From: Streptacidiphilus rugosus AM-16
GTDB lineage: Bacteria; Actinomycetota; Actinomycetes; Streptomycetales; Streptomycetaceae
DNA: 64,000 nucleotides
Direction of reading: 5' to 3'
Assembly (NCBI RefSeq): GCF_000744655.1
Contig: NZ_JQMJ01000004.1
Coordinates: 2,666,001-2,730,000 of the forward strand
Positions 1 through 13,513 of the stretch are shown in pieces. Made by a program: the position numbers and the translations under genes. Under the pieces are notes generated by a model, which did no database searches, was not told the DNA's origin, and worked only from the letters and a program-made list of their open reading frames with translations. Position 1 is the stretch's first letter; every line of letters begins with the position of its first letter.

Positions 1-1779
1 CCAGGACGCGACCGGGGTGCCGCCCGGCCGGGGTCGGGCCGCCGGGAGCGGCGCCTTCGCCGATGCGGCGGTCGTGGGCGGCGGCTCGCTGCTCTGCGGC
101 ATGGTGACCGGGACGGTCCGGTCCGCGGTCCAGGCGCCTGGCGTGGCGAAGGTCAGCGTGCCGACGAAGTCGCGCAGGTGCGTGGTCCCGAAGCGGGGCC
201 GGCAGTAGACGTCGACCCGGTAGCGGCCGTGCAGGCTGACCACGCCGTTCTGACGCGCGACGGCGCGCAGGGTCTGCACCAGCGGGACCGTGTAGCCGCC
301 GGTCGAGGCGGCCGGATAGATCGACGCGGCGGAGACGCCCAGGTCGGAGACGCCGCCCGCGGGGAGCCCCGGACCGGAGACGGAGGCCGAGAGCCACTGG
401 CCGGGCTCGGGGCAGCGGCCGGAGGTGGCCACGTTGATCGGGTCGTCGTCGTGCCCGTTCGGGTAGCCGAAGAACAGCACACCGGCGGCCCCGCCCGCGA
501 CCGCGGTCGGCGAGGGCGAGGTCCCGTCGGCGAACGCGGCGGCCGGGCCGCCCAGCGCAGCGGTCAGCGCGGTTCCCAGCGCCAGCCCGAGGACGGCGAG
601 TGAGCGCAGAGCCTTGCCGGGCCCGGCGCCGGGGACGGCGGGAACCGGAGCCTGGGGCGCGTTGGGAGCCGGAAGGCCGGTGGGCGCCGTGGGCTCGATC
701 GGCGGGGCGGGTGAGGTGGGCCGGGCCGGCGCGGTGGGCGGCGCAGGGACACCGGGGGTACCGGAACCGCTCGGGCCGCCGCGGCGACGTCGGCGCAGGC
801 GCAGCAGCGCACGGGCGATCAGCGCCAGGACCGGCAGCAGCAGGGCGATCAGCGTCCACGGCACGGTCGCGTAGTCGCGGTTGCTGACGGCGGAGGGCAG
901 CGCAGGATCCGCGTCGCCGGGGACGGCCAGCGGATCGACGGTGATCGAGGCGGTGGACCAGAGTGTCGGAAAGACGCCCGGCACCCGCACCGTGTAGGTC
1001 TCCGTGTTGCCCGGCAGCAGTTCGGTCAGTGCCGCGGTGCCGCGCGCCGTGGCGACCAGGCCCAGGGCGTCGCGGACCCGGACGGCCTGCTGTCCGCCCA
1101 GGCGGATGTTGCCGGCGTTGCGCACGGTGTAGCTGACGGTCGTGCTGCCGGTGCCGAAGGGGTTGAGCGTGCCGCGGTAGTGCACGCTCACCGACTCGAC
1201 GACCAACCGCGGGCGCAGCGCCCCGGGAACCCGGAGGTGGATCCTGGTGCCGACGCGCTGGTCGACCGCGACGGCGTTGCCCTTGGCGTCGACGGAGTGG
1301 CGCCGCAGCGCGAGCACGATGCCGCCGGAGTGGTCGCCCGGTCCGGCGGTCGCCGGGACGGCGAGGGTGAACGGGACGATCTGACGGGTGCGCGGCGGCA
1401 GCACCACGGTGCCGGTGGCGAGGTGGACCCAGGAGCCGATGTCTACCGAGGTCCTTCCTGCGGGCAGCACGTCGTAGCCGCCGGTCGAGGTGTTGAAGGC
1501 GTCGGCCGCGTAGAGGGTCAGCGTCAGCGGCTCGTCGCCGTAGTTGAAGACCGCGATGTGGTCCTTGAGCTGCGCGCCGGGGGTCGCCGCGTAGGTGAAG
1601 GCGGCCCGCTGGTCGGGCGCGCCGGCGGAGGCCGGCTGGATGCCGAAGGTCTGCTGCTGGGCGGCCGGGGCGGCGGCGGGCGCGGCAGCGGCCGTCGCAC
1701 CGAGAGCGGTCAGCACGGTGGTGAGCAGGGCCGTCAGCGCGAGCAGCGCTCTCAGCGGCCTCGTCGGGGGGCGTGTCAT
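1..1779 (-). CDS. DUF916/WxL-interacting-type membrane protein fused to a disulfide Ig-like module (3' end outside window)
   Basis: The frame is open from ATG 1779 to the window edge, at least 593 codons, with no stop, so the C-terminus is missing. Residues 1-35 look like a signal peptide (TRPPTRPLRALLALTALLT). Residues about 45-300 resemble the DUF916 (WxL-interacting, peptidoglycan-binding) domain, with the typical start QQQTFGIQPASAGAPDQRA. A TM helix near 303-322 (LIALLLPVLALIARALL) is followed by an Arg stretch and a Pro/Ala-rich linker. A second hydrophobic segment near 393-415 (LAVLGLALGTALTAAL) then leads into a module with two Cys (GRCPEPG, DVYCRPRFG). That module resembles the N-terminus of the next protein upstream in the operon. 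No ATG, GTG or TTG lies before the second hydrophobic segment, so a genuine fusion is preferred to two genes. The predicted topology puts both globular parts outside the cell. Role: probably cell-surface attachment; substrate unknown. Confidence 0.75.
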   Translation of the reverse strand, partial: MTRPPTRPLRALLALTALLTTVLTALGATAAAAPAAAPAAQQQTFGIQPASAGAPDQRAAFTYAATPGAQLKDHIAVFNYGDEPLTLTLYAADAFNTSTGGYDVLPAGRTSVDIGSWVHLATGTVVLPPRTRQIVPFTLAVPATAGPGDHSGGIVLALRRHSVDAKGNAVAVDQRVGTRIHLRVPGALRPRLVVESVSVHYRGTLNPFGTGSTTVSYTVRNAGNIRLGGQQAVRVRDALGLVATARGTAALTELLPGNTETYTVRVPGVFPTLWSTASITVDPLAVPGDADPALPSAVSNRDYATVPWTLIALLLPVLALIARALLRLRRRRRGGPSGSGTPGVPAPPTAPARPTSPAPPIEPTAPTGLPAPNAPQAPVPAVPGAGPGKALRSLAVLGLALGTALTAALGGPAAAFADGTSPSPTAVAGGAAGVLFFGYPNGHDDDPINVATSGRCPEPGQWLSASVSGPGLPAGGVSDLGVSAASIYPAASTGGYTVPLVQTLRAVARQNGVVSLHGRYRVDVYCRPRFGTTHLRDFVGTLTFATPGAWTADRTVPVTMPQSSEPPPTTAASAKAPLPAARPRPGGTPVASW

Positions 1780-1894
1780 CGCGGGCGGATCCTTCACACT
1801 GGCGGGTGACTGGGCAGGCTGTCCCGCCGCACCCCGGCGGGGCGGTGCGACGGGACGGCCATCAATGGCGGCCTTCAGTGACTTCGCTGAGAGG

Positions 1895-1953
1895 ACGTCA
1901 CATCACGGTCGGAGGGGAGCGTGGTGCGAGTGGCGGAACGTCACATCACGGTC
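1895..1953. repeat. 16-bp direct repeat around the end of the Ig/WxL gene
   Basis: The sequence ACGTCACATCACGGTC occurs at 1895-1910 and again at 1938-1953. The second copy covers the stop codon and last codons of the Ig-repeat gene, so the first copy looks like a short duplication of that 3' end. The surrounding gap (1780-1940) shows no other gene. No function is assigned. Confidence 0.6.
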
Positions 1954-3518
1954 AGCGTGAGGACCCCGGTGTAGGTGCCCGCCTTGGTGGAGGTCGGCGC
2001 GACCAGGGAGAGGTCGGCGCCGAGCTGGGCGGTGCCCAGGCCGGTCGCGGAGGCCAGCGTCCGGGAGGACTTCAGGCCGAGCGCGCCGGTGTCGCCCGCG
2101 GCGACGGCGTTGGCCGGGGCCACCGCGCCGCCGAGGGTGACGTTGAGGCCGTCGACCTTGTTCACCAGGTGCGGAGCCCAACCGAGGTTCTCGCCGTTGA
2201 TCGAGTCGGTGCCGTTGGAGAAGTCCGCCACCTGGCCGCTGAGCGCCCAGCCGGGCGCGCCCGCGCGGGTGTCGGTGACCGTGACGGTCTGGATCGGGCC
2301 CGCCGTGGCGAACAGCGTGCTGGCCGAGTTGAGCGCCAGCGGCGGCAGCGCGACGTTGCTGCCCGCCACGCTCAGCACCAGCGCGCCGGGGGCGACGGTG
2401 GTGGTGATGTTCTCGGTGCCGGTGCCCGCACCGCCGCCGCCGTTGCCGCCGGGCGCGCTGACGGTGAACGGGACGGCCGCCGAGGTGGAGGCCGCGTAGG
2501 CGGTGGCGTCGGTGGGCACGAAGGCGGCCGTGATCGAGTGGTCGCCCTGCGGCAGCGTGCTGGTGGTCAGCGTGGCGGAGCCGCCGTTGAGCGGGGCGCT
2601 GCCGATCGCGGTGCCGGTGGTGGTGTCGGTGAAGGTGACGGTGCCGGCGGCGGTGGTCGGGGTGACCGTCGCGTTCAGCGTGACCGGGGAGCCGGCCGGG
2701 GCCGAGGAGCCCTGGGTGATGGCCAGCGCGGTCGTGGTGGCCTTCGCGCCGACCGGGCTCACCGTGTAGTCGGTGACGGTGGAGGTGGAGTTGCCGAACG
2801 CCGCGTCCGTGGAGGTGAACGCTGCGGTCAGCTGGTGGGCGCCGACGCTGAGCGCCGAGGTGGTGAGCGTCGCGGAGCCGGCGGCGACCGCCACCGGGCT
2901 GCCCAGCGCCGTGGTGCCGTCGTAGAACTGGACGTTGCCCGCGGCGGTCGGGGAGACCTGCGCGGTCAGGGTGACCGCCGAGCCCGCGGTGGACGGGCTG
3001 GCCGGGGTGACCGAGAGCGTCGTCGTGGTGGCGGCCTGGGTCGGGTTGGTGGAGGTGTACGTGGTGGGGCTGGTGAACCAGATCTTGCCCACGTAGCTGC
3101 CGAAGGTCGTGGCGCCGAAGGCGTTGCGGCAGCTGAGGGTGAAGTCGTACTCGCCGGACAGGGCGGTGATGCCGGCCTGCTTGGCGAAGAAGTTCATGGT
3201 GTTGTTCAGCGGCACCACGTAGCCGCCGGAGGCGGTCTGCTGGTAGATCGACAGCGGGGAGTTGCCGACGACGTTGGTGCCGGTGGCGGGGAAGCCCTGG
3301 CCGGTGACGGACATCAGCAGGTTGGTGCCGCCGGGGCAGGCGCCGTCGGTGGTGAAGCTCATGCCGTCGGTGTCGGCGCCGGAGGCCGGGGTGGCCGTCA
3401 TGCCGCCGAGGACGGTGTCGGCGTGCGCGGCGCCGGCGGCGAACAGCATGCCGGTGCCGGAGGCCAGCACGGTAGCCGTGACCAGCGCGATGCGCCGGGA
3501 GATCGGAGAGGTCGACAC
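1941..3518 (-). CDS. Secreted Ig-like repeat protein with WxL-like C-terminus
   Basis: The protein has 525 aa. I choose GTG 3518 because it opens a clean signal peptide (VSTSPISRRIALVTATVLAS, Ala-rich, ending AAHADT) and has an AAGGCGAG motif upstream. Residues 35-165 form a module with two Cys (DGACPGG, LSCRNAFG) shared with the neighbouring DUF916 fusion protein. Two Ig-like Big_3_5-type repeats of about 90 residues follow, each opening with a TTTxLxVT-like strand and containing VQFYDG or VTFTDTTTG. A Gly-rich hinge (GGNGGGGAG) leads to a C-terminal domain ending GTYTGVLTLTVM, as in WxL surface domains. No sortase motif or membrane anchor is seen. It probably acts outside the cell, possibly bound through the DUF916 partner; this is inferred from the known WxL/DUF916 pairing. 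Confidence 0.8.
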   Translation of the reverse strand: MSTSPISRRIALVTATVLASGTGMLFAAGAAHADTVLGGMTATPASGADTDGMSFTTDGACPGGTNLLMSVTGQGFPATGTNVVGNSPLSIYQQTASGGYVVPLNNTMNFFAKQAGITALSGEYDFTLSCRNAFGATTFGSYVGKIWFTSPTTYTSTNPTQAATTTTLSVTPASPSTAGSAVTLTAQVSPTAAGNVQFYDGTTALGSPVAVAAGSATLTTSALSVGAHQLTAAFTSTDAAFGNSTSTVTDYTVSPVGAKATTTALAITQGSSAPAGSPVTLNATVTPTTAAGTVTFTDTTTGTAIGSAPLNGGSATLTTSTLPQGDHSITAAFVPTDATAYAASTSAAVPFTVSAPGGNGGGGAGTGTENITTTVAPGALVLSVAGSNVALPPLALNSASTLFATAGPIQTVTVTDTRAGAPGWALSGQVADFSNGTDSINGENLGWAPHLVNKVDGLNVTLGGAVAPANAVAAGDTGALGLKSSRTLASATGLGTAQLGADLSLVAPTSTKAGTYTGVLTLTVM

Positions 3519-3616
3519 AGGAGTACTCGCCTTCGTAGGACGTCGTTCGTCTGCGGTCGTCTGGGGAAGCGGGCGTGCGGAGACGGGGAAGCGGCGGTGC
3601 GGCGGCGTCAGTCGGA

Positions 3617-4600
3617 TCAGCTGGTCTTCGAGGTGTCGCCGCAGCTCGGGTCGATGCCGAAGCCGTAGCTGCGGATGATCGACTGCTGCTGGCAGATCAG
3701 CGCGCTCGGACCGGCGAAGACGGTGCTCCACGGCGCGGTGCCGACGCTCTGGGTCGGGATCACGTTGTAGACCTCGCGGGTGGCCGCGGAGCCGGTGTTG
3801 AGCAGCAGCGACGGGGTGCCGTTGATGCTGCCCAGCACGGCGGAGCCGCGCAGGTCGGCGATGGTGCCCGCGCCCTGGGCGATGAACTGGGCGATGGAGA
3901 AGGGCGCGATGGAGCTGTCGTCGAGGACGCGGCCGTCGTGCTCCTCGATCGGCTTGCCGTTCTTGGTGTCGCTGACGCACGGGTACTTGCCGGCCACCAC
4001 GTCCGCGTCGGCGATGCCGACCGTGGTCTCCCAGAAGGAGCGGGTGCCGGAGCCGGCCTGCGGCAGCAGCGGGTGGACGCTGTAGTTCGGCGCGGTGCCG
4101 ACGTAGTTGGGGTCGCAGGTGTAGATGCCGTGCAGGTCGGTCAGGGTGAGCGTGCGCGGCAGGACGCTGCCCGGCGTGATCGCGTAGGTGACCGCGTCGA
4201 CGGCGAAGGGCACGTAGGTGAGGCCGGGGCTGGACGCGGCCAGGTTCAGGCTGGAGGAACGGGAGAACTGCAGGCAGCCGTTGGCCGCGCCGAGCGAGTT
4301 GAGCAGCGCGGTGCGACCGGCGCCGGAACCGTTCGGGCGCGCCACGTTCTGGCACGCGGCGGCGGCCTGGGTGGAGATGGTGGTCGACCCGACGGCGTCG
4401 TAGGAGCCGATGACCTTGGTGCCGTTGATCGTGATCGCGTTGCCCATGGCGTCCATGACGCCCTGGGTGGTGTCGGAGCCCACGCCCGCGAGCTGACGGT
4501 AGGTGGGCGCGCCGACCGGGTCCGCGTGCGCGGTGCCCGCGCCGACGGCGAGGAGCGCGGCGCCGGTGGCGGCGGCGAGGAGCCTGAGCTTGGCACTCAT
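3617..4600 (-). CDS. Secreted PstS-like (PBP-like) substrate-binding protein
   Basis: The protein has 327 aa. It starts at ATG 4600 with a typical signal peptide (MSAKLRLLAAATGAALLAV, cleavage after AHA). The mature part has features of the PBP-like family related to PstS: GVGSDTTQGVMDAMG at the N-terminus, YVPFAVDAVTYAI, LTLTDLHGIYTCD and PLLPQAGSGTRSFW. The last matches the SGT-type anion-binding loop. Paired Cys suggest disulfides. No lipobox is present, so the protein is either released or held by partners. It lies in the leftward operon with the Pst-like permeases. Phosphate as ligand is possible but not shown. Confidence 0.82.
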   Translation of the reverse strand: MSAKLRLLAAATGAALLAVGAGTAHADPVGAPTYRQLAGVGSDTTQGVMDAMGNAITINGTKVIGSYDAVGSTTISTQAAAACQNVARPNGSGAGRTALLNSLGAANGCLQFSRSSSLNLAASSPGLTYVPFAVDAVTYAITPGSVLPRTLTLTDLHGIYTCDPNYVGTAPNYSVHPLLPQAGSGTRSFWETTVGIADADVVAGKYPCVSDTKNGKPIEEHDGRVLDDSSIAPFSIAQFIAQGAGTIADLRGSAVLGSINGTPSLLLNTGSAATREVYNVIPTQSVGTAPWSTVFAGPSALICQQQSIIRSYGFGIDPSCGDTSKTS

Positions 4601-4634
4601 GAGGAGGTTCCCTTTCGACGGTGGTGCGGAGAGG

Positions 4635-4657
4635 GACGGCCGGGGACTCCGGCCGTC
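4635..4657 (-). terminator. GC-rich hairpin between two binding-protein genes
   Basis: A perfect 9-bp stem, GACGGCCGG/CCGGCCGTC with a 5-nt loop, sits in the 119-bp gap after the 919-aa gene and before the 327-aa gene. It could attenuate the operon or protect the 3' end of the upstream message. No U-tract is seen, as is usual in actinomycetes. Short GTGCGG/GGTCCGGCG repeats follow it. Confidence 0.5.
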
Positions 4658-4719
4658 GGCGGTGCAGGTGCGGGGTCCGGCGGTGGTGCGGGTCCGGCGG
4701 TGGTGCGGTCGGAACGTGG

Positions 4720-7479
4720 TCAGCGACGGCGCTCGGGCAGGTAGCGCGACAGGGCCGGTCCGGTGGCGGCGGCGAGGAGTCCCACCAGCAGCAGGACCAG
4801 GAGGAGGTACTGGAAGGCGCCGACGGAGGTGCGCGCGGTGCGTGCCGCGTTCTGGACGGCGGGCGAGCTCGGCGCGAGGGTCACCACCTTCGTGCCGGGC
4901 GACGCCCCGGAGCCGCCCGCGGAGCCGCCGGACGTCCCTCCGGAGGTGTCGCCGGACGAGCCGCCGATCCCGCCGCCCGCAGCGCCTCCGGAGATGCCGG
5001 AGCCGGCCGAGCCCGTGGCGCCCCCCGTACCGTGGGAGCCTCCGGCGCCGGCCGTGGCGCCGGTGCCGCCCGCCGCTCCCCGCCCGCCCGCGCCGGTGGC
5101 GATCGCCTGCGCCGCCGTCAGGGCCTGGGCGCGCAGGGTCTGCGGCAAGGGGACGTATCCGTCCCCGAGTTGGCCCGCCTGCACGCCGGGCGTCTGGCCC
5201 TGCCCGGCGGAGTAGCGGAGCAGGCCGGCGAAAGCGCCGCGCTCCGTGGCGCTGAGCAGCGAGGGCACGGTGGCCGCGTAGCTGACCATCGTGAGCGGAT
5301 AGGCGCCGGCGGTCTTGTCGGCGGGCGGCAGCAGCCGCACCCCCGTGGCGCCGACCGGGGTCATCGCCGACTCGGCGGCCTGCATGGCCGCCGCCGTGGG
5401 TGCGACGAACTGGCCTGCCCCGTTGCGCAGATCGGCGGTGTCCAGGCCGTAGCGGGCCGCCGTGGCGGTGTCGGTGACGGAGAGGATGCCGATCTGTCCC
5501 TGCGGCTGCGGCGGGGCCTTCTTCAGCTGCGGCGGGGTGGCGGTGGCGTCCCAGATGGAGCGGGACAGGGTGTCGCCGCGCGCCGCCGAGCGGGCCGCGT
5601 CGTGCATGTCGTTGGCGTAGGGGTGCGCGTCGAGCGTGCACCACGGCGGGCGGTTGTTCGGGTCGTTGGGGAAGGTCTGGCAGTAGGGGTCGCTCTTGGG
5701 GAAGTCGTCGCGCGGCAGGTTGAGGGTGCCCGCGGTGTAGTTGGGGTTGACGGTCATCCCCCACGGGTCCTTGGCGCCGGACAGGAACGCCTTCGCGTCC
5801 GGGTCCGCGGCGACCCAGGCCCACAGGTGCCTGGCCGCGTCGGACTGGCCGAGCGGCACCAGCATGTCGGCGATCCTGGAGGTGAAGGCCAGCGGCGTGA
5901 AGTCCGGATTGAGCGCGAGGAAGTCCGGATCGGTGGTGAGGTCGAGCGCGTTGTTCTGGACGTCGGCGGCGCCGTAACCGACCGCGTACCGGTAGGACTG
6001 GGTGAGCAGCTTGGCCACCAGCCGCGGCGTCAGGTTGATCTTCGGGATGCGCTGGCCCTCGCGTTTGCGCACCTCGGGGGGTGCGCTGGCGTAGGACTGG
6101 CTCTGCACGTCGAAGGCGATGGCCACCCCGGACAGGGCGACCGGCGCGTAGACCGGCGTGCGACCGGCCGGCAGCTGGTCGGCGGGGACCGGGTCCGCGA
6201 CGTAGACCAGGCCGGGGTCGGCGTCGTTGACCAGCTTGCCGCGGGCCAGATCGTCGTCGATCTTGGTGTAGCCGAAGATGGAACCGGTCTTCTGGCAGAG
6301 CACCGGCTGCCAGCGGGTGACCGCCTCCTGCACCATCTCGGTGCCGTAGGTCAGCCGCTCGGCGCTGCCGATGGGGCAGTTGAGGCCGAGCGGGGCGAAG
6401 TGCAGCGGCACCACCATGCGGTAACGCCAGTTGCTCGTCGACAGCGGGGAGGACTGCAGCTGCCCGGAGTTGGAGGTCGGCGGCTTGTCGTCCACGTCCA
6501 GCTCGCCGCGCGGAACCGCCACCAGCCAGCAGCGGCGGCCCTCCTTCGGGGGCACCTTGAGGTTGTCGGGCGTCTGACCGCAGCCGAGGCCGGGGGCCTC
6601 CATGCCGGTCTCGGTCTCGAAGTAGACCTGGCCGGTACCGTCGGCGCGCGTGGGCGCGTAGGGCACCTCGTTGGTGGAGCCCAGGTCGAAGAACTGGCTG
6701 ACCGAGCCGTCCTCGGTCACGCCGTTGACGGCGTGGAAGGGGACGTAGACGTTGACGTTGGGCTTGGTCTGCTTGATCGGCTCGCGCTGGTCCACCAGGT
6801 TGGCGCCGTAGTTGAGCTGGCGGGAGGGGACCCACGCGCCGCCCCGGCTGTCGCCGCGGTCGGCGCCGTACTGGCACTGGGTGCGGTCGGGGCCGGTGGC
6901 GGCGTCCCCCCAGCACTGCATCAGCTCCAGGTAGTCCTGCGCGAAGCTGGACGGATTGGGCAGGGTCGGCTTGCCGCCGGTCCAGCTGACCTTGACCACC
7001 TGGTCGACCAGGTCCGTGGTCTGGGCGACCGTCAGCGACAGTCCGGCGAACGGGCCGGTGCCGTGCACGGTGACCGCCGAGCCGGAGGCGGCCGGGCTGA
7101 CCAGGGTCGGCTTGCCCGGCAGCCGTGCGTCGCTGCTGCCCACGGTGGTGAGCGGGCCGGCGGCGTCGGCCCCACCGCCCGTTACGCCGCCGGCCGAGCC
7201 GGACGCCGCGCCGCCGGGGTCGAGCGGCACCGGCTGCCCGGTGACCGGGTCGACCCGTACCGAGGGGCCGGAAGCCGGCAGGGAGACCGAGGCGCTGCCC
7301 GCCCCGCCGGACGGTCCCGAGGTGACCACGCCGGCGGCGACGGCGGCGAGCACGGCGCCGACCAGACCGATCCGCAGCGCCCGCGCCGCGGTCCTGGCCC
7401 GCGGCCGCACCTCGGTCGGCACGGCGGTGCGGGCTGTGGTGCGGGCGGCGGTGTCGGCGCCACGTCGGATACGGATCAT
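4720..7479 (-). CDS. Large membrane-anchored PBP-like surface protein
   Basis: The protein has 919 aa. It starts at ATG 7479, preceded by GGAGGACCAGCG, and the ATGA overlaps the stop of the permease-PstS fusion gene, so the two are translationally coupled. An Arg-rich N-terminus precedes a TM or signal segment at about 35-56 (RIGLVGAVLAAVAAGVV). The body (about 100-780) carries PstS-like elements (VYAPVALSGVAIAFDVQ, INLTPRLVAKLLTQSY) in a much enlarged domain with many Cys. Residues about 790-880 are a Gly/Ser/Ala low-complexity stalk. A C-terminal TM (about 890-912, YLLLVLLLVGLLAAATG) is followed by RYLPERRR. It is therefore displayed on a stalk at the membrane. Ligand unknown; the context suggests it works with the Pst-like permease. 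Confidence 0.78.
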   Translation of the reverse strand: MIRIRRGADTAARTTARTAVPTEVRPRARTAARALRIGLVGAVLAAVAAGVVTSGPSGGAGSASVSLPASGPSVRVDPVTGQPVPLDPGGAASGSAGGVTGGGADAAGPLTTVGSSDARLPGKPTLVSPAASGSAVTVHGTGPFAGLSLTVAQTTDLVDQVVKVSWTGGKPTLPNPSSFAQDYLELMQCWGDAATGPDRTQCQYGADRGDSRGGAWVPSRQLNYGANLVDQREPIKQTKPNVNVYVPFHAVNGVTEDGSVSQFFDLGSTNEVPYAPTRADGTGQVYFETETGMEAPGLGCGQTPDNLKVPPKEGRRCWLVAVPRGELDVDDKPPTSNSGQLQSSPLSTSNWRYRMVVPLHFAPLGLNCPIGSAERLTYGTEMVQEAVTRWQPVLCQKTGSIFGYTKIDDDLARGKLVNDADPGLVYVADPVPADQLPAGRTPVYAPVALSGVAIAFDVQSQSYASAPPEVRKREGQRIPKINLTPRLVAKLLTQSYRYAVGYGAADVQNNALDLTTDPDFLALNPDFTPLAFTSRIADMLVPLGQSDAARHLWAWVAADPDAKAFLSGAKDPWGMTVNPNYTAGTLNLPRDDFPKSDPYCQTFPNDPNNRPPWCTLDAHPYANDMHDAARSAARGDTLSRSIWDATATPPQLKKAPPQPQGQIGILSVTDTATAARYGLDTADLRNGAGQFVAPTAAAMQAAESAMTPVGATGVRLLPPADKTAGAYPLTMVSYAATVPSLLSATERGAFAGLLRYSAGQGQTPGVQAGQLGDGYVPLPQTLRAQALTAAQAIATGAGGRGAAGGTGATAGAGGSHGTGGATGSAGSGISGGAAGGGIGGSSGDTSGGTSGGSAGGSGASPGTKVVTLAPSSPAVQNAARTARTSVGAFQYLLLVLLLVGLLAAATGPALSRYLPERRR

Positions 7480-10325
7480 CGCTGGTCCTCCCTGCGGCGG
7501 TAGAGCCCACGCGCGATGAGCGGGGGAAGCACGACCACGCCGGCCAGAAGAGCCGCGGCCAGGGCCATCAGCGTGTCCTGGAAGGCGCTGCCGGAGGCGG
7601 CGCTGATGGCGACCGGATCGGCGTTGACCTGCACCCCGCCGCCGGAGCCCGAGCCCCCGCTCGACCCGCCGACGAGACCCGGATCGCCGGAGGCGGCCGC
7701 GCCGCCGTTGCCGCCGGTCCCTGCCGTCCCGCCCCCGCCGGTTCCGGCAGTGGCCCCGCTCGTGCCACCGGACCCGCTGCTGCCGCCGGCCCCGCCGGTA
7801 CCCGAGCCGCCCGCAGCGCCGCCCCCGCCCGAACCCCCGGAACCCGCACCCCCGTTGCCGCCGGCCCCGCCGGTGCCGGTGGTGCACTGGCCGGTGTTCC
7901 CCTGCTTGTCGCAGGCGGGCGGATACGGTGCGGTCTTGGCCAGGGTGTTGGTGCCGTTGGAGGAGAAGGTCGGGTTGTTGCAGTCCTTGATGGTGATGTT
8001 CTGCGCCTGCACGCCCGGCACCCGGCGGATCTGGGTCAGGCCCGCCTGCACCAGGTTGATCGGCAGCGGCGAGTAGCCCAGCGCGGGCGCCTGCTGCTGC
8101 CCCTGGCACAGGAAGTAGTAGGCGAAGGCGCCCAGCGTGCGGCCCTTGTCCTGGTTGAAGCCGTTCTCCAGGGCGGTCGGCAGGATCATGTAGCTGTAGC
8201 TGGAGAGCGGGTAGGTGCGCGGGTCGGTGCTGTCGTAGACGCCGGTGAGCTTCTGCGTCAGGTCGCCGTTGATCTGCGCCGAGGTCAGCCCGACCGCGAC
8301 CGCGGCCGCGGTCGGTTCGACGTAGTAGTGCGCGGCGTTGAGCATCTTGGCCACCGGGAACCCGGTGTTGAGCGCGTAGGAGTACTCGACGTAGGTGATC
8401 GAGCCCTCGTTCTGGTCCTGGGCGACGAAGCCGGAGACGCCCTGGGAGCCGCTCAGTGCGATGAAGCCCGAGCCGTTCACGACCGGGAAGAAGGAGGTGA
8501 TCCCGCACGGCGCGCTGCGGCCCGCCTTGACGCAGTAGGCGTCCCACTTGCTCTGCTCGCGCTGGCTCAGCCAGGTGGAGAGCTGGGCGGTGGTGCCCGA
8601 GCCGTCGGAGCGGACCACCGGCACGATCTGACGGGCGGGCAGGTTCAGCCCCGGATTGTCGACGGCGATCGCCGGGTCGTTCCAGTGGGTGATGGTGCCC
8701 GTGAAGATCCCGGCGATGGTGTCGCCGGAGAGCCGCAGGTCGTTCACCCGATGCCCGTTGATCTTCAGGTTGTACATGAACGCGGTGCCGCCCGCGACGA
8801 TGGGCATGTAGGCGAACCTGCGCGACGGCGGGGCCTCGTAGACGCCCTGGTCGGTCACCCCGTACGGGATCTCGGAGACCGCGAAGTCGACGGCTCCGTT
8901 CTTGAACTTGGAGCGGCCGTCGGAGGAGCCGGTGGCGTCGAAGTTGATCTGCATGCCGTACTGCTTGACGTTGGTGGCCCAGGCGTCCATGGCATTGCTG
9001 CTCCAGGTGGAGCCGGCGCCGGAGATCGGCACGAAGCTGCTGGCCAGGGCCTTCGGCGCGGCGACGACGAGCATCAGCAGCGCGAGCACGGTGAGCGTCG
9101 CGGCGGGGGCGGCGCCCTGGCGCAGGCGGGCGAGGAGTCGGCGTCGCACGCCGCGGTCCTTCCTGTCGGGTACGGGTGGGGGGCCCAGCCGGGCGAAGCG
9201 GGCGGCCAGGCGGGCGGAGGCGGCGATCCTGCGGCGCTGCTGACCTGCGGTCAGCACGCCGGCCGGTCGGCCGCCGACGATGCGGGCCAGGAGGAAGAGC
9301 AGGACCACGACGACCAGCAGCACCGCCGCCGCGCCGAACCCGCGGGTGATCTGCGCCTTGGAGGGAAGCCGCACCAGGGTGAAGACCAGCAGCGGCAGCG
9401 ACACCTGCGGCCCCTCGAAGGGGTTCGCGTTGAAGGCCTTGTTGTATCCGGCGGTCAGCAGCACCGGCGAGGTCTCGCCGATCCCCCGGGCGGTGCCCAG
9501 GATCACCGCGGTCATCAGGCCCGAGCGGGCGGTCGGCAGCACCACCCGCAAGGTGGTGCGGATGCGGCTCGCGCCCAGCGCGTAGGAGGCCTCCTTGAGC
9601 GAGGCGGGCACCAGCCGCAGGACCACGTCCGCGGCCCGGATGATGATCGGCAGCATCATCACCGACAGCGCGCAGCCCGCTGCGAAGCCGCTGCGCCCCC
9701 AGCCGAGCACCAGCACGAAGACCGCGTAGATGAAGAGTCCGGCCAGCACCGAGGGCAGCGCCGTCATCGCCTCGACCAGGGTGCGCACGAAGCGGGCGAA
9801 CGCCCCCGGCACCTCCAGCAGGAAGACGGCCGTGGCGATGCCGAGCGGGACCGTGATGACCAGCGCGATGCCGATCTGCTCCAGCGAGCCGACGACGGCG
9901 TGCAGCGCGCCTCCCGTGGTCAGCGGGGTGAGCGAGTCGGCCGAGGACATGTCCTGGGTGTAGAAGTTGGCGTGCCTCAGCGCCCCGGCGCTGCGGAAGG
10001 CGGTGTAGCCGATGATCAGCGCGAGCGCCACCAGCACCAGTGCGGCCACGCTGTGCACCACGGCGGCCGCGAGCCGGTCGCGGACCGCCAGCCCGTTCTC
10101 GTCCTGGGCCACCAGCAGCGCGTACAGGCCCAGGAAGCAGAGCCAGACGGTGACGGCGAAGCCGAGTGCGCCGTTGAACGGCAGCAGGTAGCGGAAGAGC
10201 AGCGTGGTCAGCCCGAACGCGCCCGCCAGCGCTCCGGCCACGGCGTACAGGTCGCGCGGCTTCAGGGCGCCGGGGTTGCGGCGCTGCTGGGCGACGCCGG
10301 GCGGAAGCGGGGCCCGGACGACCAC
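7476..10325 (-). CDS. PstA-type permease fused to PstS-like binding protein
   Basis: The open frame encodes 949 aa. Residues 1-350 are a PstA-like permease with six hydrophobic segments and the ABC permease loop (SLKEASYALGASRIRTTLRVVLP). Residues 350-404 are a basic cytosolic linker. A signal-like helix (TLTVLALLMLVVAAPKALA) then leads to a PstS domain at about 428-800 with phosphate-binding motifs SGAGSTW, TGSSDGRSKF and RSDGSGTTAQL. Residues about 818-908 are a Gly/Ser/Ala stalk, followed by a C-terminal TM and RGLYRRREDQR. GTG 10325 has no clear RBS. A better-placed GTG at 10420 (GTGA overlap with pstC, GGAG upstream) is in another frame, so the true N-terminus is uncertain. An internal GTG at 9149 with an AGGAAGGA site could give a free 557-aa PstS. 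Confidence 0.8.
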   Translation of the reverse strand: MVVRAPLPPGVAQQRRNPGALKPRDLYAVAGALAGAFGLTTLLFRYLLPFNGALGFAVTVWLCFLGLYALLVAQDENGLAVRDRLAAAVVHSVAALVLVALALIIGYTAFRSAGALRHANFYTQDMSSADSLTPLTTGGALHAVVGSLEQIGIALVITVPLGIATAVFLLEVPGAFARFVRTLVEAMTALPSVLAGLFIYAVFVLVLGWGRSGFAAGCALSVMMLPIIIRAADVVLRLVPASLKEASYALGASRIRTTLRVVLPTARSGLMTAVILGTARGIGETSPVLLTAGYNKAFNANPFEGPQVSLPLLVFTLVRLPSKAQITRGFGAAAVLLVVVVLLFLLARIVGGRPAGVLTAGQQRRRIAASARLAARFARLGPPPVPDRKDRGVRRRLLARLRQGAAPAATLTVLALLMLVVAAPKALASSFVPISGAGSTWSSNAMDAWATNVKQYGMQINFDATGSSDGRSKFKNGAVDFAVSEIPYGVTDQGVYEAPPSRRFAYMPIVAGGTAFMYNLKINGHRVNDLRLSGDTIAGIFTGTITHWNDPAIAVDNPGLNLPARQIVPVVRSDGSGTTAQLSTWLSQREQSKWDAYCVKAGRSAPCGITSFFPVVNGSGFIALSGSQGVSGFVAQDQNEGSITYVEYSYALNTGFPVAKMLNAAHYYVEPTAAAVAVGLTSAQINGDLTQKLTGVYDSTDPRTYPLSSYSYMILPTALENGFNQDKGRTLGAFAYYFLCQGQQQAPALGYSPLPINLVQAGLTQIRRVPGVQAQNITIKDCNNPTFSSNGTNTLAKTAPYPPACDKQGNTGQCTTGTGGAGGNGGAGSGGSGGGGAAGGSGTGGAGGSSGSGGTSGATAGTGGGGTAGTGGNGGAAASGDPGLVGGSSGGSGSGGGVQVNADPVAISAASGSAFQDTLMALAAALLAGVVVLPPLIARGLYRRREDQR
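9147..9166 (-). promoter_or_regulatory. Internal ribosome-binding site and GTG inside the permease-PstS fusion
   Basis: On the minus strand AGGAAGGA stands 7 nt before an in-frame GTG (9149). This codon opens VRRRLLARLRQ followed by a hydrophobic stretch, i.e. a complete signal peptide for the PstS half. The site could allow separate synthesis of the binding protein from the fused gene. Confidence 0.5.
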
Positions 10326-10420
10326 GGTGGTGCCGGGTTCGGCGGTCGCCGTCGGCGCGGCGGGCCCGGGTCGGGCGAGGGCGCGCCGGGCAGCGGGGCG
10401 GGCGTGGCGGAGGTGGTCAC
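10262..10420 (-). CDS. Short frame-shifted reading frame at the pstA start
   Basis: GTG 10420 overlaps the pstC stop as GTGA and is preceded by GGAG with 7-nt spacing, which is the expected pstA start. Its frame encodes 52 aa beginning VTTSATPAPLPGAPSPDPG and stops at 10262. The permease frame is open over the same DNA and reads PTATAEPGTTVVVRAP. The two halves look like one N-terminus split by a single-base indel near 10350-10370. This could be a sequencing error, a real frameshift or a coupled leader peptide. Confidence 0.4.
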   Translation of the reverse strand: MTTSATPAPLPGAPSPDPGPPRRRRPPNPAPPWSSGPRFRPASPSSAATPAP

Positions 10421-11439
10421 GAGGCGGCTCCGGAGCGACTGCGGGCGACCACGGCGGACGCGGCGAAGTTGACCACCAGGGTCATCAGGAAGAGGGCCAG
10501 CCCCGCGGCCATCAGGGCGGAGATGCCGAACGGCGAGGAGTCCCCGTAGTGCAGGGCGATCAGTGCGGAGACGGTGCTCGCGCCGCTCTGCAGCACATGC
10601 GGCTGGATGGCGAAGACCATCGAGATGATCATGTAGACGGTGATGGTCTCGCCGAGCGCCCGGCCCAGGCCGAGCATCGTGCCGCCGATGATTCCGCCGC
10701 GCCCGTACGGCAGCACGACCGACCTGATCACTCCCCAGCGGGTCGCGCCGAGCGCGTAGGCGCCCTCACGCTCCCCCTGCGGCGCCTGGCCGAAGACCTC
10801 GCGCATCACCGAGCACATGATCGGCGTGATCATGAAGCCGACCACGGTGCCCGCGATGAAGGTCGAGGAGGTGTACGCCGCGACCGGGGCGAGCGGGTCG
10901 TGCGGGTCGACGCCGTCGACCTTGAAGAGCGGGATCCAGCCCAGGTAGGTGGAGATCCACCGGGCCAGACCGGTCATCCGCTGCTCCAGGAAGAAGAAGC
11001 CCCAGAGGCCGTAGACCACGCTGGGCACCGCGGCCATCAGGTCCACGGCGGTGATCAGCCACTGCCGCAGTCCCCTCGGCGCGTACTCGGAGATGTACAG
11101 CGCGGCACAGAGGGCCATCGGCAGGGCCAGCGAGACCGCCAGCACGCCGACCAGGATCGTGCCGACCAGCACGGCCGCGATGCCGAAGTGGCCGCGGCCG
11201 GCGTCCGGCTCCCAGTTCTGCGTCGTCAGGAAGGCGAAGCCGCCCACCCTGAGCGCGTGCGCGGCCTGGTACGCGAGGAAGGTGCCGATGGCCAGCATCA
11301 CCGCGAGCACCAGCGCGCCCGAGGTGCGGAGGCCGCCGCGGAAGAGCCGGTCGGACAGGCCCGTCCCGGCCGGGGGTCGCACCGGTCGCTGCGGGTTCCC
11401 GGCCGGGCCGGGGCTCGTGGGTCGCATGTCGCCGCTCAT
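10417..11439 (-). CDS. pstC: PstC-type phosphate ABC transporter permease
   Basis: The protein has 340 aa with six predicted TM helices. After a Pro-rich cytosolic N-terminus (MSGDMRPTSPGPAGNPQRP), TM1 is ALVLAVMLAIGTFLAYQAA. The typical PstC features are present: LITAVDLMAAVPSVVYGLWG, the large periplasmic loop and the EAA-like loop EREGAYALGATRWGVIRSVVLP. ALGETITVYMIISMVF follows, with the GE pair common to PstC/PstA. ATG 11439 overlaps the preceding stop (ATGA). It should form a heterodimer with the PstA half of the neighbouring fusion. The partner ATPase PstB is not in the window. Confidence 0.9.
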   Translation of the reverse strand: MSGDMRPTSPGPAGNPQRPVRPPAGTGLSDRLFRGGLRTSGALVLAVMLAIGTFLAYQAAHALRVGGFAFLTTQNWEPDAGRGHFGIAAVLVGTILVGVLAVSLALPMALCAALYISEYAPRGLRQWLITAVDLMAAVPSVVYGLWGFFFLEQRMTGLARWISTYLGWIPLFKVDGVDPHDPLAPVAAYTSSTFIAGTVVGFMITPIMCSVMREVFGQAPQGEREGAYALGATRWGVIRSVVLPYGRGGIIGGTMLGLGRALGETITVYMIISMVFAIQPHVLQSGASTVSALIALHYGDSSPFGISALMAAGLALFLMTLVVNFAASAVVARSRSGAAS

Positions 11440-11870
11440 CGGTTCACCGCCGGTCGGGCCAGGTCGCCCGGCGGCCGGCCACCGTGGCGCACGGACCGCC
11501 GCTGTTCCGGCAGTTCGCCGGGGCGCGCGCCGGCGGCCGGCACGCCCGCGAGGAAGTGGGCCAGGTTGTAGCGGCACTCGCGGAGGCGGTGGTACGCCCG
11601 GCCGGACCTGGCCGCCTCCGCTCCGTCGAGGTCGAGCCGCCAGCGCCAGAGCGCGTCCTGGCGGACCGCGTAGACCACGGGGACCGCGCGTTCGAGGTTG
11701 TCGCCCAGCCGGGCGACGGCCTGCTCGCAGGCCTCCCGGTGCGGGAAGAACCCGGCGCTGCGGCCGAGTTCGCGGTTGTTCGCGCCGACCAGGCGCCAGC
11801 CGAACCACGCGGACTCCCCGCCACCGTCCCGGTCCGTCCCGGTGACGATGAGGAATCTGGCTCTGCCCAC
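11436..11870 (-). CDS. YegP/DUF1508-like small protein, first gene of the Pst-like operon
   Basis: The protein has 144 aa. It starts at GTG 11870 behind a strong GGAGGAGGGG site. Two units resemble the YegP/DUF1508 fold: a first containing AWFGWRLVGANNRELGRSAG with HREACEQAVARL, and a second containing WRWRLDLDGAEAARSGRAYH with RECRYNLAHFL. No signal peptide or TM is present, so it should be cytosolic. Its stop overlaps pstC as ATGA, and it is the first gene of the leftward operon. Function unknown; the family assignment rests on pattern only. Confidence 0.65.
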   Translation of the reverse strand: MGRARFLIVTGTDRDGGGESAWFGWRLVGANNRELGRSAGFFPHREACEQAVARLGDNLERAVPVVYAVRQDALWRWRLDLDGAEAARSGRAYHRLRECRYNLAHFLAGVPAAGARPGELPEQRRSVRHGGRPPGDLARPAVNR

Positions 11871-12187
11871 CGTGCCCCTCCTCCCGCACTGGCCGCGTTC
11901 GGCCGAGGGAGACGGTCCGGCTTCCAGGCGGATTCACAGACACGGGCCAGGGAACGCCGGACATGGACACGGTGAACGCAGAGCGTCCGAGGTGTCAGGA
12001 AGTTGTGTACACGCGGATGGCATGTCAACTCCGTTGACGATCGATCGGAACCTGCTGTGACCTCAGCCTTCCGCTGTGTCACAGCTCTGCCGCGAATCCT
12101 CAAGATCGCCGCAACTATGGTGTGCCTGTCCGGGCGGGCGGCCATACTGCTTGCGACGAAAACTCGAGGGGGAAGGGGGCGCGCGGC
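11871..12187. promoter_or_regulatory. Divergent intergenic region between the Pst-like operon and the PknG cluster
   Basis: This 317-bp gap separates divergent operons and must hold both promoters. On the minus strand GTTCACC (11977-11971) and GTTCCC (11955-11950) lie exactly 22 bp apart, two 11-bp steps, as in a degenerate Streptomyces PHO box; the middle unit matches poorly. On the plus side GCTGTGAC (12054-12061) and GTCACAGC (12078-12085) form an 8-bp inverted repeat with a 16-nt spacer, a possible operator for the sensor operon. GTGTACAC (12005-12012) is a further short palindrome. No confident -10/-35 pair is assigned. Confidence 0.35.
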
Positions 12188-13513
12188 GTGGCGACATCGC
12201 TACAGGAGCGTCCGAAGGGAGCACGGCCGGCCAGAGAGCGGGCAGTCGCCGCGTTGGCGGGCACTCCACCGCGCAGACTGCGGACCGGGGCGACGCTGCT
12301 GGCGCTGCTGGCCCTGCTGTTCGGGGCGTTGACGGCCTGGCAGGTGAGCTCGCGGTCGACGGCGGCCGACAACGTGGTCAACCACAGTCAACCGCTGAGC
12401 GACGACGCGGCCCAGATCTTCCGTTCCCTCGCCGACGCGGACACCACCGCCGCCACCGGATTCCTCCAGGCCGGCAACGAGACCGCCGCGGTCCGCGCCC
12501 AGTACGCGAACGACATCGCCACCGCCTCCCGGCTGCTGGCCCAGGCCGCCGCGCAGACCGGTCCCGGCGACCCCGGCCAGGCCTCGATCCAGCTGCTCAA
12601 CAGCCAGCTCCCGGTCTACGCGGGGCTGGTGGAGACCGCCAAGGCCGACGACCGGCAGCGACTGCCGCTCGGCGGCGCCTACCTGCGGTACGCCTCCGGG
12701 CAGCTGCAGAACCAGATGCTGACCGAGGCGCAGAGCCTCTACCAGGCGGAGACCAAGCGCCTGCACGACGACTACGCCGCCGCAGGCTCGCTGCCCTGGG
12801 CCGCGCTCGGGCTCGGGCTGGTGCTGCTGGCCGCGCTGGTCCGGATGCAGCTGCGGCTGTTCAGGAGGACCAACCGGGTGTTCAACCCGGGCCTGGTCCT
12901 CGCCACCGTCTGCGCGACGGTCGCGCTGCTGTGGCTGGCGGTCGGCCAGAGCGTCGCCGCCTCCTACCTGTCGGACAGCGACACGCGCGGGGCCACCCCG
13001 CTGCAGGTGCTCAACCAGGCCGGCATCGAGGCGCTGAAGTGCCGCGCCGCGGAGAACCTCAACCTGGTCGCGCGCGGTTCGACCACCACCTACGAACAGA
13101 ACTGGGACGCCGAGAGCGCGGTGCTGGCCGGCACGTCCGGCTACCTGCCCCAGGCGCAGCACATGACCTCGGACGACGCCACCGCGCAGCGCGCGATCGG
13201 CGCGGCGCTCACCTCCTGGCACGACTGGCAGTCCAGGCACGACACCGCCCGTGGCGCCAACCAGGGCGGCGACTACCAGACCGCCCTGAACGACACCATC
13301 GGCAGCGGCGGGAGCACCATCAACGCCGCCTTCACCACGCTCGAGACCAGCCTCAACGCCGCGGCCGTCCACGAGCAGGCGCAGTTCCGCAGCCTCGCCG
13401 ACAGCGGTCGCGGCGCGACCTCGCTGCTGGCGCCGGGCGCGGGCCTGCTGGCCGTGCTCGCCGCGGCGGGCGCCGTGGTCGGCATCAACCGACGCGTGGC
13501 CGAGTACCGGTAA
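12188..13513 (+). CDS. GlnX-like four-TM membrane sensor
   Basis: The protein has 441 aa from GTG 12188, which has a GGGGGAAGGGGG tract upstream. A longer in-frame start at 12122 is less likely. Four TM segments are seen: about 34-52 (GATLLALLALLFGALTA), about 193-212 (PWAALGLGLVLLAALV), about 229-252 (LVLATVCATVALLWLAV) and about 415-437 (LLAPGAGLLAVLAAAGAVVG). Two long, mostly helical extracellular loops lie between TM1/TM2 and TM3/TM4. No kinase or HAMP domain is recognised. The gene sits immediately before a glutamine-type binding protein and close to a PknG kinase. This is the known mycobacterial GlnX-GlnH-PknG order, in which GlnX links extracellular amino-acid binding to PknG. Assignment rests on topology and context. 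Confidence 0.72.
   Translation: MATSLQERPKGARPARERAVAALAGTPPRRLRTGATLLALLALLFGALTAWQVSSRSTAADNVVNHSQPLSDDAAQIFRSLADADTTAATGFLQAGNETAAVRAQYANDIATASRLLAQAAAQTGPGDPGQASIQLLNSQLPVYAGLVETAKADDRQRLPLGGAYLRYASGQLQNQMLTEAQSLYQAETKRLHDDYAAAGSLPWAALGLGLVLLAALVRMQLRLFRRTNRVFNPGLVLATVCATVALLWLAVGQSVAASYLSDSDTRGATPLQVLNQAGIEALKCRAAENLNLVARGSTTTYEQNWDAESAVLAGTSGYLPQAQHMTSDDATAQRAIGAALTSWHDWQSRHDTARGANQGGDYQTALNDTIGSGGSTINAAFTTLETSLNAAAVHEQAQFRSLADSGRGATSLLAPGAGLLAVLAAAGAVVGINRRVAEYR

Follow-up and report, generated by a model that had tools for sequence, protein, structure and literature searches.

A probable second, anciently separated Pst-type importer of Actinomycetota with a surface capture layer and a pseudo-sortase

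Introduction

Is an operon that sets phosphate-type permease genes among genes for wall-type surface proteins an ordinary phosphate importer, or something more? The question is raised by the left end of a stretch of 64,000 nucleotides (nt) of Streptacidiphilus rugosus AM-16 (assembly GCF_000744655.1, NZ_JQMJ01000004.1:2,666,001-2,730,000, forward strand), hereafter the window, by which we mean that whole stretch. An earlier reading made from the letters alone (the sequence-only reading) had described in positions 1-11870 a Pst-like operon without PstB and had seen in it "a dedicated surface capture machine rather than ordinary phosphate uptake". Here we report that the operon goes on beyond the left window edge, where a sortase-fold gene and pstB follow, and we argue that it probably represents a second, anciently separated Pst-type ATP-binding cassette (ABC) importer of Actinomycetota, with a built-in surface capture layer and a pseudo-sortase as putative scaffold.

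Nutrients have to cross a thick wall to enter Gram-positive bacteria, and the placement of binding proteins in that wall is, to our knowledge, poorly known. Moreover, phosphate supply controls antibiotic production in actinobacteria, so an overlooked second Pst-type system would be of practical weight.

Results

Operon layout

The operon genes are listed below in the order of transcription, all on the minus strand. Window positions correspond to those of the fetched flank locus (L002) minus 6000, and negative values lie beyond the left window edge.

11436..11870, minus strand: small DUF1508-like protein of 144 amino acids, first operon gene (PF07411, E 0.02, below cut-off)
10417..11439, minus strand: PstC permease, 340 amino acids (TIGR02138, 256.3 bits for a cut-off of 196.45)
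7476..10325, minus strand: PstA-PstS fusion, 949 amino acids (TIGR00974, 204.6 bits for a cut-off of 193.45; TIGR00975, 202.2 for 205; PF12849, E 1.8e-42)
4720..7479, minus strand: PBP919, 919 amino acids (no Pfam match; PstS-like by profile-profile comparison with hhalign, 97.6%)
3617..4600, minus strand: PBP327, secreted PstS-like protein without C-terminal transmembrane segment (PF12849, E 4.9e-5, below cut-off)
1941..3518, minus strand: Ig/WxL protein, 525 amino acids (PF16640 (Big_3_5), E 4.7e-29; WxL via homologues)
1779 down to -152, minus strand, cut by the window edge: WxLIP (DUF916) fusion, 643 amino acids (PF06030, E 1.9e-5)
-1117..-149, minus strand, wholly outside the window (L002:4883-5851): predicted pseudo-sortase, 322 amino acids (PF04203, E 1.4e-10)
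-2011..-1175, minus strand, wholly outside the window (L002:3989-4825): PstB, 278 amino acids (ABC_tran, 117.6 bits; PstB model, 335.3 bits for a cut-off of 343.2)

The seven leftward genes that the sequence-only reading had recognised in the window are real, and all can be taken as coding because their third-position GC lies between 0.92 and 0.99. The start-stop overlaps it had pointed out are also present, as two 4-nt overlaps inside the window, one of them between the DUF1508-like gene and pstC, and a third at the left edge between the WxLIP gene and the sortase-fold gene. The remaining intergenic gaps measure 57-161 nt, with pstB lying 57 nt beyond the sortase-fold gene. An ABC ATPase match at C4:2664235-2664708, on the same strand and 1.3 kb beyond the left window edge, marks that gene, and the likely genes next past pstB face the opposite direction. 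The absence of PstB was thus an error of the earlier reading, since an intact pstB, the very gene that it had named as making this an ordinary pst operon, stands at -2011..-1175 on the same strand. Its remark that PhoU is missing still stands, as we found no PhoU near the operon.

Two features at the right-hand side of the operon can be mentioned here. The DUF1508-like gene heading it has homologues at 21 of the 48 loci described below, and the operon is adjoined by a divergent gene for a 463-residue protein (window 12122-13513) with no Pfam match.

Distribution and co-occurrence

We searched 296 genomes drawn from the class and 396 from the phylum; the candidates scored per genome were at most 3 (PBP919, class), 8 (pseudo-sortase, class) or 2 (phylum), and absences are accordingly uncertain. 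Strong PBP919 matches (E up to 2.9e-30) were obtained in 40 of the 296 class genomes, distributed by hand count over 13 families; in the window's own family, 3 of 28 genomes are concerned. Weaker matches (about 32 bits or less, nearly all on the last part of the profile) resemble canonical PstS and are not included in these counts. Independently of the PBP919 search, the pseudo-sortase profile scored at least 158 bits in 40 of the 296 genomes, followed by a drop to 110.8; a C-terminal half of a sortase in G050 (106.6 bits) falls below this threshold and is uncounted. The two sets of 40 genomes have 37 in common, with PBP919 alone in G067, G069 and G229 and the pseudo-sortase alone in G015, G060 and G137. 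In the phylum, PBP919 matches with E no higher than 1e-15 occur in nine of 396 genomes; five of the nine belong to other classes, and two of these five are divergent. The plasmid collection gave no PBP919 match. Finally, a narrow-pattern scan of genome contigs recovered three named Streptacidiphilus species with the same gene order as far as the contigs reach, and with protein identities of about 60-90%.

To describe the neighbourhoods, 48 loci were annotated with iterated profiles: L002-L005 and 44 fetched places, which come from 47 strong match rows after setting aside the window itself and the short fragments G004:C141 and G140:C62. At assessable loci, PBP919 is accompanied by PstC in 43/43, PstA in 43/43, PstS in 43/43, PBP327 in 45/46, the pseudo-sortase in 40/40 and PstB in 34/37. 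As related genomes are not independent of one another, Fisher p-values on co-occurrence, and likewise on the PHO boxes discussed below, are descriptive only.

Divergent modules of other lineages (L114, L119 and L120) adjoin a pstC-pstA-pstB-pstS set and may show the ancestral state; a divergent module in such a position is present in G137, G296 and G310.

A separate Pst lineage

The window's genome carries a canonical pst elsewhere. PstC exceeded its cut-off in all 48 module genomes tested, with at least two matches in 45 of them (hand count). A single match was obtained in G137, G140 and G060, and that of G137 adjoins the pseudo-sortase. We built a FastTree phylogeny of 46 module PstCs, three divergent-module PstCs and 21 canonical ones (20 picked from genome matches plus that of the window's genome). 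The 46 module proteins form one clade without any canonical member (support 0.939), and the three divergent ones fall on the module side of the tree. PstC and PstA, as recognised by the earlier reading, both exceed their NCBIfam cut-offs; the PstB score of 335.3 bits is just short of the equivalog cut-off of 343.2, and its motifs appear intact by eye. Altogether, the view that this locus is more than an ordinary pst operon is strengthened, because the gene set is kept in many families, its PstC is separate and 45 of 48 genomes have a second PstC. The presence of a canonical pst elsewhere, the separate PstC clade and the conserved extra partners led us to reject the idea of an ordinary pst operon.

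The sortase-fold protein

The most unusual constant member of the module lies beyond the window. It is built of a transmembrane segment, a sortase domain, two further transmembrane segments and a tail reading LLPNLI. The sortase fold is supported, at the level of sequence, by the PF04203 match (above cut-off) and by the alignment of the family profile with solved sortases (E 2.8e-19), and the closest NCBIfam model is that of class E sortases, below its cut-off. In the copy of this operon, the catalytic His is replaced by Arg and the catalytic Cys by Ala. We aligned 40 module proteins with 12 control sortases, chosen from the 15 PF04203 places that the window's genome has besides the module's own. 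The catalytic His column holds H in 12/12 controls, against R (36) or K (4) in 40/40 module proteins; the Cys column holds C in 12/12 controls, and A (27), S (9), G (2), T (1) or V (1) in the module. At the catalytic Arg column, the controls have R (5) or N (7), whereas most module proteins carry V, A, I or T. No Cys occurs anywhere in the sortase domain of the 40 module proteins, and ten further module proteins inspected by eye have, where covered, lost the His (9/9) and the Cys (10/10). The His of GPGH is kept in 40/40, and all 40 proteins end in an LLPN-type tail (pattern L-[LIVMF]-P-[NASK]). A mere misalignment of the catalytic Cys and His was rejected, as the domain has no Cys and solved sortases fall on the same alignment columns, their GH facing the module's GR and their TC the module's TA. 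Judging from these residues, the sortase-fold protein is a pseudoenzyme that has lost its catalytic residues and kept its fold. Its AlphaFold model was too poor for a fold search (pLDDT 34.6).

Binding proteins and fusions

The three binding proteins proposed by the sequence-only reading are borne out to different degrees: the fused PstS domain matches PF12849, PBP327 matches it weakly, and PBP919 is PstS-like by profile-profile comparison. Both long binding proteins end, as described, in a Gly/Ser-rich stalk and a C-terminal transmembrane segment. Among homologues, this segment is found in PstS (43/43) and PBP919 (42/47) and in none of 47 PBP327 proteins.

The PstA-PstS fusion consists of PstA (about residues 1-380), a transmembrane segment (405-423) followed by a signal-peptidase-like site (ALA-S), the PstS domain (434-766), the Gly/Ser stalk and the terminal transmembrane segment (919-937). 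PstA and PstS share one open reading frame at 3/43 loci (the others: S. anmyonensis L005, L079) and are separate at 40/43, so the fusion is derived. A frameshift or assembly artefact was rejected, as the fusion lies in a single frame with third-position GC of at least 0.86 in every 60-codon block, and L005 and L079 are also fused. The protein may be cut after synthesis. The operon contains two fusions (7476-10325 and 1-1779), and in both the second half starts with a signal-peptide-like stretch and an AxA-type site (ALA-S and AFA-D, respectively); it is possible that both are polyproteins cleaved by signal peptidase.

Using what we take to be the residue numbers of E. coli PstS, the window PstS keeps RSDGSGT and has Glu at the position matching Asp56; with TIGR00975 it reaches 202.2 bits for a cut-off of 205. 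Across the module, the RSDGSGT-type signature retains its Arg in 35/43 and its last Gly in 43/43 PstS domains; one canonical PstS control row began at a late start codon and serves as control for part of the columns only. PBP919 starts with an N-terminal region; its PstS-like domain (about 364-792) lacks the phosphate signature and is followed by the stalk and the anchor. Over that domain, a 37-sequence PBP919 profile matches the module PstS profile at 97.6% and solved PstS proteins at E 3.4e-10; the AlphaFold model of PBP919 was too poor for a fold search (pLDDT 28.9). The PBP327 profile matches solved phosphate-binding proteins with a best E of 6.3e-16.

Surface proteins

The Ig/WxL protein shows, in order, a signal peptide, an N-terminal domain that recurs in the next gene, a pair of Big_3_5 Ig domains and a C-terminal WxL domain. 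The earlier assignment of this last domain holds, since 15/24 homologues match PF13731 with an E of 0.1 or less (best 1.3e-6; window copy 0.04). The DUF916 fusion was also recognised correctly: its PF06030 match (E 1.9e-5) is just below the cut-off in hmmscan and above it in the genome search. By sequence similarity, the C-terminal part of this WxLIP gene is a second copy of the N-terminal domain of the Ig protein.

The proposed survey of co-occurrence gave a divided answer. Binding proteins and permeases are constant, whereas WxL and WxLIP (DUF916), both present in the window operon, are optional, with 26/41 and 23/38 assessable loci respectively. We consequently rejected WxL/DUF916 as the core of the system. 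The emphasis of the sequence-only reading was misplaced: it stressed variable genes, and the constant dead sortase lay outside its view. At five loci without a WxL match (L063, L064, L071, L072 and L097, of which L063 is not fully assessable for WxL), one protein each was scanned and Big_3_5 Ig domains were present in 5/5, three of them on one open reading frame with PBP327.

LAxTG/LPxTG-type C-termini adjoin the module at 4/48 loci and are absent from the window operon. At these loci (L071, L072, L075 and L076), the neighbouring protein ends in an LAQTG sorting signal, a transmembrane segment and a basic tail, with two Big_3_5 domains confirmed in L071 and L072. Its sorting signal suggests that it is likely a substrate of active class E sortases, encoded beside a dead one. 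Two genomes of one family carry two module copies each, G134 (L067 and L071) and G059 (L070 and L076); in both, one copy has WxL/WxLIP and no PstB found, and the other has PstB and the LAQTG protein. The window's genome also holds a second WxL and WxLIP pair (L101:9662-11177; G000:C4, about 3.17 Mb) with no Pst-type matches within 20 kb.

Regulation

For scoring PHO boxes we used the letters GTTCACC, which we take to be those of the repeat. PHO-box-like repeats scoring at least 12/14 precede the first operon gene at 17/42 loci, where 0.24 were expected from Markov sequences, and seven loci score at least 13 (0.00 expected); several of the 17 positive loci are close relatives of one another. 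The operons of L072 and L097 are examples that carry such repeats. The same scan was positive in 12/860 random 500-nt windows of the same loci and in 7/185 regions before internal operon domains, and scrambled motifs gave 0, 0, 1 and 0 of 42. For the canonical pstS of the window's genome, a score of 12 is obtained. A pattern search of the whole window returned 6 matches for 4.69 expected. According to passages of PMC7866108 and PMC2605767, the Streptomyces PhoP box is made of two 11-nt direct repeats. The repeats point towards phosphate limitation, which probably induces the operon through PhoP in many relatives. This systematic scan strengthens the importer reading. Of the two halves of the earlier proposal, the one that sees more than an ordinary pst operon stands, on the conserved gene set, the separate PstC lineage and the second PstC; the one that sees a role other than phosphate uptake is not supported, given the repeats before 17 of 42 related operons.

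Discussion

We consider it rather probable that Actinomycetota possess, in this module, a second Pst-type ABC importer that separated in ancient times and that includes a surface capture layer and a pseudo-sortase scaffold, the ligand and the scaffold role being the conjectural parts. Its sequences include PstC, PstA and PstB, a tethered PstS, the giant and mostly tethered PBP919, the soluble PBP327, and a class-E-type pseudo-sortase with three transmembrane segments and an LLPN tail. In such a machine, PBP327, held in the wall by the Ig/WxL proteins, would catch phosphate or a phosphorylated compound and hand it to the membrane-tethered PstS. This would feed PstC-PstA, with PstB powering import. 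Judging from sequence, the optional WxL, WxLIP and Ig proteins provide the binding to peptidoglycan. The pseudo-sortase could act as a non-catalytic receptor or scaffold that docks binding or wall proteins beside the permease.

Several observations weigh against this interpretation. In the PstS domains, Glu stands in for the Asp56 equivalent in 31/43 and His or Gln for the key Arg in 8/43, so that the ligand of the module PstS may be other than plain, free phosphate. The phosphate box is also altered in PBP327, where PQxGSGTR replaces RSDGSGT, and in PBP919, where the RSDGSGT loop of PstS aligns to a stretch without GSGT; because this loop is gone, PBP919 may bind another ligand or serve as an adaptor. 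PstB is missing at two assessable loci, L067 and L070 (in L077, the locus edge truncates the gene, which scores below threshold). The window's own operon has no PHO-box-like repeat, its best score being 10/14. The two AlphaFold models, both of very low confidence, lend no support to the scaffold role. Finally, a second Pst is not unusual, as two to four high-affinity systems occur in mycobacteria according to PMC2797804.

A bolder form of the importer reading is a wall-spanning machine in which a dead sortase has turned receptor and docks wall-held binding proteins onto the permease, induced by phosphate limitation in many lineages and possibly with organic phosphates or phosphorylated polymers of the wall, instead of free phosphate, as its substrates. 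We put this forward as a tentative proposal, which we rather doubt in its full extent.

Could the module simply be an extra phosphate importer, with the additional binding proteins and the sortase relic as passengers of little role? The near-canonical scores of PstB, PstC and PstA, the PHO-box-like repeats and the multiple Pst copies of other actinobacteria (reported in PMC2797804) would fit this view. We regard it as unlikely, since relics would decay or be lost, and yet the pseudo-sortase (40/40) and PBP327 (45/46) are kept over many families, with an LLPN-type tail in 40/40 and a uniform change of His to Arg or Lys. The latter conservation could alternatively mean that the sortase homologue is alive with another chemistry, re-using the conserved Arg and the Ser/Thr/Ala position. 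While Arg/Lys and the His of GPGH are each conserved in 40/40, 27 of the 40 proteins carry Ala where the Cys would stand, 2 carry Gly and 1 Val, leaving most members without a nucleophile there, and we hold this explanation to be very improbable.

It is also conceivable that the module senses or builds rather than imports, the ATPase and permease powering signalling or the assembly of surface proteins that the pseudo-sortase would present. Three binding proteins for one permease, another PstC in 45/48 genomes, two loci without PstB and LAxTG sorting-signal proteins adjoining the module at 4/48 loci could all be understood in this way. However, PstC, PstA, PstS and PstB stand together at most assessable loci, the PstS signature is mostly kept and nutrient supply is what the PHO-box-like repeats suggest. 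We find a sensor or wall-building device as unlikely as mere passengers. As for a chance neighbourhood or an assembly artefact, some gaps of 91-161 nt leave a single transcript unproven and we found nothing else in its favour, whereas the gene set recurs in 13 families of the class and outside the class as well; together with the co-occurrence counts, this contradicts such an explanation and makes its probability negligible.

If the bolder form of the importer reading were true, Gram-positive bacteria would have a nutrient-capture machine of a new class. Genes for placing the binding proteins and genes for the pump lie together here and have stayed together across many families. A catalysis-free sortase fold at every assessable locus would moreover be a rare conserved pseudo-sortase. 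In a search of the open-access literature with pseudo-sortase phrases, limited to what the matching records display, the only matches concern pili of Lactococcus. Likewise, among the matches listed in the open-access PMC literature, titles and abstract starts describe no such system, which may be described elsewhere. The module has the appearance of a hitherto undescribed means by which cells capture phosphorus at their surface.

How does it compare with known systems? Passages of PMC7866108 name only the PstSCAB and Pit systems as universally conserved in the actinobacteria studied. With PstSCAB the module has in common PstC, PstA and PstB homologues and a PstS domain with an RSDGSGT-type signature; it differs by its two additional PstS-like proteins, its pseudo-sortase, its optional wall proteins, its separate PstC lineage and the lack of a nearby PhoU. 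Its PstS is tethered by a C-terminal transmembrane segment, whereas the canonical Streptomyces PstS is a lipoprotein according to PMC2605767. More than one Pst per genome is also known from mycobacteria and from pneumococcal Pst1/Pst2 (abstract starts of PMC2797804 and PMC4913102), but these abstract starts mention neither a sortase-fold partner nor extra binding proteins. The clusters of Firmicutes similarly place a WxL domain and a WxLIP protein side by side; here, however, the pair is tied to an ABC importer, and "phosphate" and "transporter" have no occurrence in the two WxL papers searched for them, PMC10599100 and PMC9772566. Finally, class E sortases such as SrtE resemble the module protein in their fold, in the best NCBIfam match (below cut-off) and in the match of solved sortases to its profile, while the module protein stands apart by the replacement of the catalytic His, Cys and Arg and by its two C-terminal transmembrane segments followed by an LLPN tail.

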